Shown piece by piece: positions 11,884 to 54,309 of a stretch of DNA of 64,000 bases. The first letter of the stretch is position 1; every line of letters begins with the position of its first letter. Origin of the DNA: Lactiplantibacillus nangangensis (GTDB lineage: Bacteria > Bacillota > Bacilli > Lactobacillales > Lactobacillaceae). The notes beneath the pieces are model-generated. The model did no database searches and was not told the origin of the DNA. It worked only from the letters and a program-made list of their open reading frames with translations. The position numbers and the translations under genes are program-made. The stretch is taken from NCBI RefSeq assembly GCF_005405065.1, contig NZ_BJDI01000002.1, forward strand, positions 124,001 to 188,000. Direction: 5' to 3'.

Positions 11884-12141
11884 GTAGATTGAAAAAGCCT
11901 TGATGAGAAATAGTAGTTAGTAGCGGCGTCCTAGGGAAGAGTGTCATCGATTGGAAGCACTCCGGCGACTTAGCTAACGAATTCACTCTCTGAGCTGAAA
12001 TTGACTATTTAGAACTTAAAAAACAATTTTCGGTACCCGGCCGTTATCCGGTGAAAGTGCGTTTGAGCCAAACAAGATTTGGCTCAACGAACAAGGGTGG
12101 TACCGCGATGACCTCGTCCCTTTTAGGATGAGGTCTTTTTT
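11884..12141 (+). ncRNA. T-box riboswitch leader, phenylalanine-specific
   Basis: The leader senses uncharged tRNA and controls readthrough into pheS. The conserved T-box AAGGGTGGTACCGCG is at 12093-12107. A preceding stem TTGAGCCAAA/TTTGGCTCAA spans 12063-12087. Stem I begins near TGATGAGAAATAGTAG. TTC at 11982-11984, in the part of stem I where specifier codons lie, fits Phe. The intrinsic terminator follows directly. Position of the specifier is by eye. Confidence 0.9.
12110..12141 (+). terminator. T-box-controlled terminator
   Basis: Ten-base stem (GACCTCGTCC/GGATGAGGTC, one G-U) followed by six Ts. Its 5' arm directly follows the T-box sequence, as expected for competition with the antiterminator. 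Confidence 0.9.
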
Positions 12142-36606: not shown

Positions 36607-36680
36607 GTCGCGGTAGCTCAACTGGATAGAGCATCCGCCTTCTAAGCGGAGGGTTGTGAGTTCAAGTCTCACTCGCGACA
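36607..36680 (+). tRNA. tRNA-Arg (anticodon TCT)
   Basis: 74 bases folding as a cloverleaf. The acceptor GTCGCGG pairs with TCGCGAC (last pair G-U), the D stem is GCTC/GAGC, and the anticodon stem TCCGC/GCGGA has loop CTTCTAA with anticodon TCT reading AGA. The T arm is GTGAG-TTCAAGT-CTCAC. Discriminator A; CCA is not encoded. Confidence 0.97.
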
Positions 36681-38259: not shown

Positions 38260-38371
38260 GTTGTATTTGTGGACTTCTGCAGCTACAACCGCACGGATTG
38301 AGTATTAAGTCCAGCAATGGCGCTTAATCTGGCGAGTCTAAGTGATTCATAATTTAAGGAGGTGCACAAAC
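38260..38371 (+). ncRNA. rplU leader (ribosomal protein L21 leader type)
   Basis: About 110 untranslated bases precede rplU. GGACTT (38271-38276) pairs with AAGTCC (38307-38312) around CTGCAGCTACAACCGCACGG, reminiscent of the L21 leader RNA of Firmicutes thought to allow feedback by the ribosomal protein. A second hairpin-prone stretch runs to the AAGGAGGTG site. The assignment rests on resemblance and position. Confidence 0.6.
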
Positions 38372-53858: not shown

Positions 53859-53866
53859 TTCGAACG

Positions 53867-53904
53867 AATAGTGTTGAGCCATTTGGGCTTGACGCTATTT
53901 TTTT
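53867..53904 (+). terminator. terminator after rpoZ
   Basis: AATAGTGTTGAGCC paired with GGGCTTGACGCTATT (G-U pairs) and T7. Confidence 0.8.
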
Positions 53905-53924
53905 AGCTTTAAGTTACTGCCTCC

Positions 53925-54096
53925 GGTTGTCGCTGATGGCATGCGGTCGTGGGACCGGGCTGAGCCTAAGAAACGTCTCAACCCTCGCCCGGAACAGTTG
54001 CGAAGCCCGCAATTGTCCCGGACCGTCCATGGCCTAAGGTCGGCAAAAAACGCCGGCCTAACGCCACCTTCACGACCGATGCCATCAGCGACAACC
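53925..54096. repeat. long structured intergenic inverted repeat (172 bp), second element
   Basis: Arms 53925-53951 and 54071-54096 pair over 26 bases with one bulged base (GGTTGTCGCTGATGGCAT...). Three inner hairpins follow in order: CCGGGC/GCCCGG with inner TGAG/CTCA (53955-53992), ACAGTTGCG/CGCAATTGT (53994-54016) and AGGTCGGC/GCCGGCCT around A6 (54037-54059). No reading frame. Same architecture as the element at 10670-10806, though the primary sequences differ. Confidence 0.75.
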
Positions 54097-54280
54097 TCCG
54101 GCTAGTTAGTGGCAGCATTTTGAGTTGATCTATTGTGGCGAGCAGTAGTTAACTAATTGTTACCACCAAATTTGCCATTGAGAATGATTCAGACGACGCT
54201 AATTGTGCAGAGAGACAGTTGTGGTGTTGATTTATGAGGTGCGGCGTAATTGCATATTTTGCCACGGTCAACCTTCAAGC

Positions 54281-54309
54281 TTCACCTCATCATGGATTCT
54301 TGATACAAT
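54281..54309 (+). promoter_or_regulatory. coaBC promoter
   Basis: TTCACC, 17 bases, TACAAT with TG one base upstream of the -10 (extended). Start near 54316. Confidence 0.6.

Follow-up and report, generated by a model that had tools for sequence, protein, structure and literature searches.

Bacterial MITEs such as MITEAba12 (PMC6382973; reviewed in PMC10969869) are short, gene-less elements with TIRs matching those of an autonomous IS, with target duplications and with many intergenic copies. Two other kinds of repeat share traits with the element described here: REP/REPIN sequences (PMC3116915), which are dispersed, non-autonomous intergenic palindromes that occur in inverted pairs, and the pneumococcal BOX, RUP and SPRITE repeats (PMC3049150), which are small, interspersed, structured intergenic repeats in a Gram-positive organism. 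Here we analyse a multi-hairpin element located between rpoZ and coaBC in a stretch of 64,000 nucleotides (the window). The feature is very probably a decayed, now immobile half of a non-autonomous, IS4-derived MITE with structured ends. We read it as decayed and immobile because its own genome has no transposase for it and because it retains one fold and no clear TIRs. Its putative membership of the MITE family rests on homology of its core.

The window copy and its surroundings are composed of the following features.

53866-53906, plus strand: intrinsic terminator of rpoZ, with a stem at 53866-53900 followed by a T-tract
53907-53918, no strand: left flank between the T-tract and the core, where a TIR would be expected
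53919-54105, minus strand: A half of the mobile element, a structured and conserved core matched by covariance model R1
53925-53951, no strand: left arm of the outer stem, forming 26 bp with 54071-54096, with one bulge
53952-53955 with 54025-54028: 4-bp helix within the outer stem, from folding
53957-53984, no strand: hairpin 1, bearing the family motif AGCC-N(5-6)-GCGGTCT
53989-54021, no strand: hairpin 2, which includes ACAGTTGCG/CGCAATTGT
54030-54066, no strand: hairpin 3, from folding
54071-54096, no strand: right arm of the outer stem, pairing with 53925-53951
54106-54270, no strand: poorly conserved right flank, in which no second half was found
54281-54309: promoter-like site ahead of coaBC, from a promoter scan

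Folding of 53925-54096 yields the outer stem and the three enclosed hairpins with a minimum free energy of -102.1 kcal/mol on the plus strand and -112.1 kcal/mol on the minus strand (z of -11.6 and -12.0, respectively; none of the shuffled sequences folded equally well). These values (z about -12) bear out the 172-bp structure of the original prediction, which had also correctly placed it past the rpoZ terminator and upstream of the coaBC promoter-like site. The predicted extent holds for the folded unit, but the conserved unit is slightly longer, from 53919 to 54105. The G-U pair predicted in the stem of hairpin 2 is present on the plus strand, although the minus strand is the better folder; as a DNA strand, the segment folds well too.

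The core begins ~13 nt past the rpoZ terminator, which is the usual landing site of the element family. Model R1 matches it on the minus strand with 202 bits (E = 4.8e-46), a score that includes the contribution of this copy to the 45 from which R1 was built. The motif in hairpin 1 is found in the variant form AGCCTAAGAAACGTCT. The terminal repeat of intact relatives, CTAAAGGTTGAAAG, is not recognisable in the left flank (53907-53918); in the copy as a whole, neither TIRs nor a second half can be recognised, nor is a target duplication proven. The right flank is probably a remnant of the rest of the unit together with host spacer, since the corresponding interval is shorter in L. pingfangensis and L. 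daoliensis. Just to the right of the core, at 54135-54166, lies an imperfect palindrome (GTGGCGAGCAGTAGTTAACT/AGTTAACTAATTGTTACCAC), perhaps a leftover of the lost right half. The core contains small ORFs only and no transposase gene, loop lengths differ out of frame among copies, and a scan of the window copy found no internal promoter. Elsewhere in the window, Rfam identifies an ordinary T-box leader (11891-12124), an L21 leader (38277-38349) and a tRNA (36607-36680).

Searches for further copies, by DNA comparison and by covariance model across Lactobacillaceae, had been proposed with the original prediction, and both are productive. At the DNA level, the genome of the window (G000; 2.9 Mb in 39 contigs) proves to contain ~41 full-length copies at dispersed sites, with 75-88% identity to the window copy. 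Forty-five copies from this genome were extracted and aligned, which defined the core at 53919-54105, and were used to build R1 (186 positions, 64 pairs). R1 has 108 matches in this genome and between 94 and at least 125 per genome in L. daoliensis, L. pingfangensis, L. fabifermentans, L. mudanjiangensis, L. xiangfangensis and a related MAG. Other Lactiplantibacillus genomes have fewer, and six, including L. plantarum, have none, so that 15 of the 21 sampled genomes of the genus are positive. Across the family, matches are found in 19 of 151 sampled genomes, belonging to 8 of 40 genera. Rfam gave no meaningful match to the element at gathering or relaxed thresholds, and plasmid and phage collections gave no match.

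Many copies are flanked by a second family, D, in the opposite orientation, and R1 matches both halves, head to head, within the same units; the hairpin motif AGCC-N(5-6)-GCGGTCT is common to both. Recently moved relatives reveal a unit of ~470-556 bp with 14-bp TIRs (CTAAAGGTTGAAAG) and target duplications of 6-10 bp, mostly 7-9 bp. Intact units hold one or two multi-hairpin domains of ~185 bp, head to head where both are present, and no gene. In genome G020, units of ~543 bp are 93-99% identical and have sharp ends, perfect 14-bp TIRs and duplications of 8-10 bp, some of them inexact. L. mudanjiangensis (G014) carries 15 units of 535-556 bp with the TIRs of G020, nearly all with exact 7-9 bp duplications. 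The G014 consensus agrees with the G020 unit in length and architecture, and the two are barely alike by blastn outside the TIRs and two motifs of ~38 bp. Three units of the window's own genome (L312, L313 and L323; ~440-480 bp) have both TIRs, duplications of 6-8 bp and one full fold with a shortened right part, while most A-type copies of this genome are, like the window copy, without clear CTAAAGGTTGAAAG ends.

A locus that is filled in one genome and empty in another was identified between the MAG G004 and L. xiangfangensis G016, which are ~95% identical. The insert is bounded by AAAAGTTTGAAAG.../...CTTTTCAACTTTTA, with the direct repeat GTTAAATAAC. The family combines the features looked for in a MITE, namely TIRs, target duplications, multiple copies, no transposase gene and TIRs in common with an autonomous element. 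We also considered A and D as the ends of a larger, gene-carrying transposon and rejected this, as the gene between A and D in the sole wide pair is an ordinary phosphatase/mutase-like one (assigned by eye from its RHG motif). A separate inverted-repeat family of ~120 bp, GTGGGCCAAAAGGCGG...GCCTTTTGGCNCACGTTTCG, is present at the G004/G016 loci (joined G016 C100 near 86291 and 248935; L184 and L192). It is polymorphic between the MAG and L. xiangfangensis, and represents another MITE-like family unrelated to the hairpin element.

In other Lactobacillaceae genera, the units examined do not show the Lactiplantibacillus TIR and, for this reason, may be moved by other transposases. Two-half units of ~450-510 bp at L292-L302 (genus label g42) are without the CTAAAGGTTGA terminal repeat.

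In G020, a search for the TIRs detected one pair at a distance of 1567 bp, between which lies the gene for a 457-aa transposase of the IS4 family (460 bits with NCBIfam IS4 model NF049925, cut-off 250; Pfam DDE_5 and DDE_Tnp_1). This IS is flanked by the duplication ATAGGAG. Related transposases (~50-60% identical), some of them broken, occur in four more species and are bounded by the TIR of the G020 IS with at most one mismatch per end; the TIRs of the MITE thus bound IS4-transposase loci in five species. The genome of the window has no match to the G020 transposase. The IS lacks the hairpin domains and has only its ends in common with the MITE, which is therefore not a simple deletion of the IS. 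From the shared ends, we infer that the element was probably mobilised in trans by an IS4-family transposase.

The surroundings of the copies are not random. Among 45 A-type copies of the window's own genome, the left-hand gene reads towards the element in 39 of 44 cases, usually from less than 150 bp away. In this set, 16 copies have an intrinsic terminator no more than 60 nt from their left end, and none has one that close to its right end (p = 6e-6). Among tandem genes, 17 copies are in sense and 4 in antisense orientation. Of 54 sides of intact units in G014 and G020, 10 have the start of a terminator T-tract at a distance of 13-18 nt from the TIR. The baseline for this spacing is 0.38% of positions (p = 1e-14), a value that overstates the specificity because the terminator scan is crude and the baseline covers whole loci, coding sequence included. 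Part of the excess is plain intergenic preference, since the background contains coding sequence; the exact spacing between terminator and TIR argues for more than that. Terminators occur on either side of intact units, so the orientation bias is a property of old solo halves.

The element is absent from the orthologous rpoZ-coaBC intervals of L. daoliensis, L. plantarum, L. fabifermentans and others. The orthologous site of L. pingfangensis contains extra sequence that makes boundary calls ambiguous, and it takes more distant species to see a clean empty site. D-type copies are found in L. songbeiensis and L. dongliensis, on the opposite side of the coaBC promoter. These elements (L069 and L070) lie between promoter and start codon, in the presumed coaBC 5' leader. 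For one D-type copy, L. songbeiensis retains only the left arm (TTGTCGCTCCAGTCGGCTCAGC), which suggests a hairpin-mediated deletion. In the window's own genome, mraY and murD are separated by 631 bp that include A and D, compared with 43 bp in G001. This insertion (L024) begins directly past the mraY stop codon, inside the cell-wall gene cluster; the locus is probably an operon, in which the insertion is apparently tolerated.

The fold is strongly conserved. Standard pairs fill 97.7% of pair cells in the 45 aligned copies, both sides have changed in 31 of 64 pairs (14.5 after shuffling) and 205 cells carry double changes (58 after shuffling), and sliding the pair partners lowers pairing to only 32-42%. 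Copies from other species form a second set, whose alignment was fitted to R1 and is hence biased towards it; here, both partners vary between Watson-Crick types at 59 of 64 pairs. Internal loops and mismatches are kept in nearly all copies, and the three-hairpin shape is preserved from genus to genus. Single copies show private double changes that preserve pairs, in a genome that lacks the transposase. The hairpin GCGTTTGACC/GGTCTTACACC, normally imperfect, has become the perfect palindrome GTGTAAGACC/GGTCTTACACC in two copies, that of L008 and the second one of L041. These copies lie at L008:1508-1695 and L041:1761-1946 and bear the signature expected of quasipalindrome template switching.

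The original prediction had offered a small RNA, an RNA-processing element or a palindromic non-autonomous repeat. The last of these agrees with the ~108 genome copies, the strong covariation, the relatives with TIRs and target duplications and the source of transposase. The first two, as functions of this locus, find no support in rpoZ-coaBC orthologues that lack the element, in the absence of an Rfam family or in the scan for internal promoters. Selection of the fold as RNA could nevertheless act more widely, on host transcripts, through a trans-acting small RNA or a 3'-UTR stabiliser or processing element for which transposition serves only as a means of spread. The covariation over copies, species and genera would suit such a role, as would the conserved junction and internal-loop bases, the motif common to both halves, the sense bias among tandem genes and the private double changes that keep pairs. 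Base-pair types point the same way: on the minus strand of the A half, which is that of the model, G-U exceeds A-C in the own copies (68 against 31 minor cells) and in the second set (32 against 13 pairs). By pairs, the excess is weak on the own copies alone (23 against 12, p = 0.09); it is suggestive of RNA and does not prove it. The wobble pairs had been taken as a sign of selection on RNA, which they may be, but the excess is modest and palindrome-correcting mutation could yield covariation too. Moreover, many copies lie behind terminators, where little RNA is made, and the window copy has no internal promoter. In each half, the favoured strand is the one that leads outwards from the centre of the unit, so that a single transcript cannot suit both halves. 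The element is missing from six Lactiplantibacillus genomes, and Rfam holds no such family. We consider a functional structured RNA unlikely, and a host RNA function is the least supported among the reasons for the fold. Another account leaves the MITE identity intact and addresses why the fold is kept: the covariation could be largely a by-product of quasipalindrome correction, in which template switching during replication rewrites one arm with the sequence of the other, so that the arms stay complementary even if structure is not under selection. Such correction has been documented in E. coli (PMC7202029), and both the two perfected palindromes and the private compensated changes in a genome without transposase are in line with it. 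However, correction would erase the multi-branched shape, which is kept between genera, and nearly all copies retain their internal loops and mismatches. Because of these conserved loops and the identical shape between genera, we argue that palindrome correction alone is not enough, and we find it rather doubtful as the main origin of the covariation.

Other modes of movement are far less probable. The hairpins, the many intergenic copies and the head-to-head pairs recall REPINs, and a REP/REPIN- or IS200/IS605-type element would depend for its movement on a Y1 transposase (TnpA/RAYT), which acts on hairpins in single-stranded form. To our knowledge, these families have neither TIRs nor target duplications, whereas the intact units have both. 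The window's own genome and G004, each with more than 100 copies, have no Y1 transposase (PF01797), but G001, G002 and G013, which have PF01797, contain one copy or none. A Y1/RAYT origin was rejected on these grounds as very improbable. Group IIC introns insert past intrinsic terminators, and many units are likewise found just behind them; a group IIC-type retroelement is nonetheless scarcely credible, as no Rfam group II intron match was obtained and the TIRs and direct target duplications contradict it, pointing to a DDE transposase.

For the gene-less transposon with IS4-type ends, we envisage mobilisation in trans by the IS4-family transposase and preferred landing in AT-rich DNA just behind the T-tracts of intrinsic terminators. 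Internal deletion would then decay the copies and give rise to solo halves, the one behind rpoZ among them. In our working view, the fold would matter to the element itself, as single-stranded nucleic acid, and not to rpoZ or coaBC; the favoured strand would be the one that ends 3' at the transposon tip. Tentatively, and with less than even confidence, we propose that the ~185-nt three-hairpin fold is a Lactobacillaceae-wide mobile domain with little sequence in common between genera. Non-autonomous transposons would carry it, those of Lactiplantibacillus with a single copy or a head-to-head pair between IS4-type ends, and it would have its own selected function as RNA or single-stranded DNA.

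The element accounts for long gene-less spacers in many Lactiplantibacillus genomes, and strong covariation in such spacers marks a mobile repeat rather than a riboswitch or a small RNA. With its conserved fold and its preference for terminators, this non-autonomous transposon raises the question of whether a transposon can profit from folding, be it as RNA or as DNA. This question is directly testable in a harmless food bacterium, given the recent intact copies of G020 and G014 and the candidate transposase of G020.

In the open PMC literature, we found no description of Lactobacillus MITEs of this kind, of IS4 elements behind terminators or of structured repeats like these. MITEs and IS4 elements are already known; we found no account in that literature of a MITE family with a multi-hairpin interior conserved across genera. 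REPs are far shorter than this element, are moved by Y1/RAYT transposases and are not known to have TIRs or target duplications, and Y1 is absent from the window's own genome. The pneumococcal BOX, RUP and SPRITE repeats differ from it in size and architecture. With the IS4-family IS (NF049925), the element has in common near-identical 14-bp terminal repeats, a target duplication of similar size and, in G020, a location behind a T-tract; the IS, however, is ~1.5 kb long, with a transposase and without hairpin domains, whereas the element is gene-less. Compared with other bacterial MITEs, it contains one or two conserved, strongly covarying multi-hairpin domains in place of a shrunken transposase gene, it prefers sites just behind terminators, and a related fold is found in several genera.
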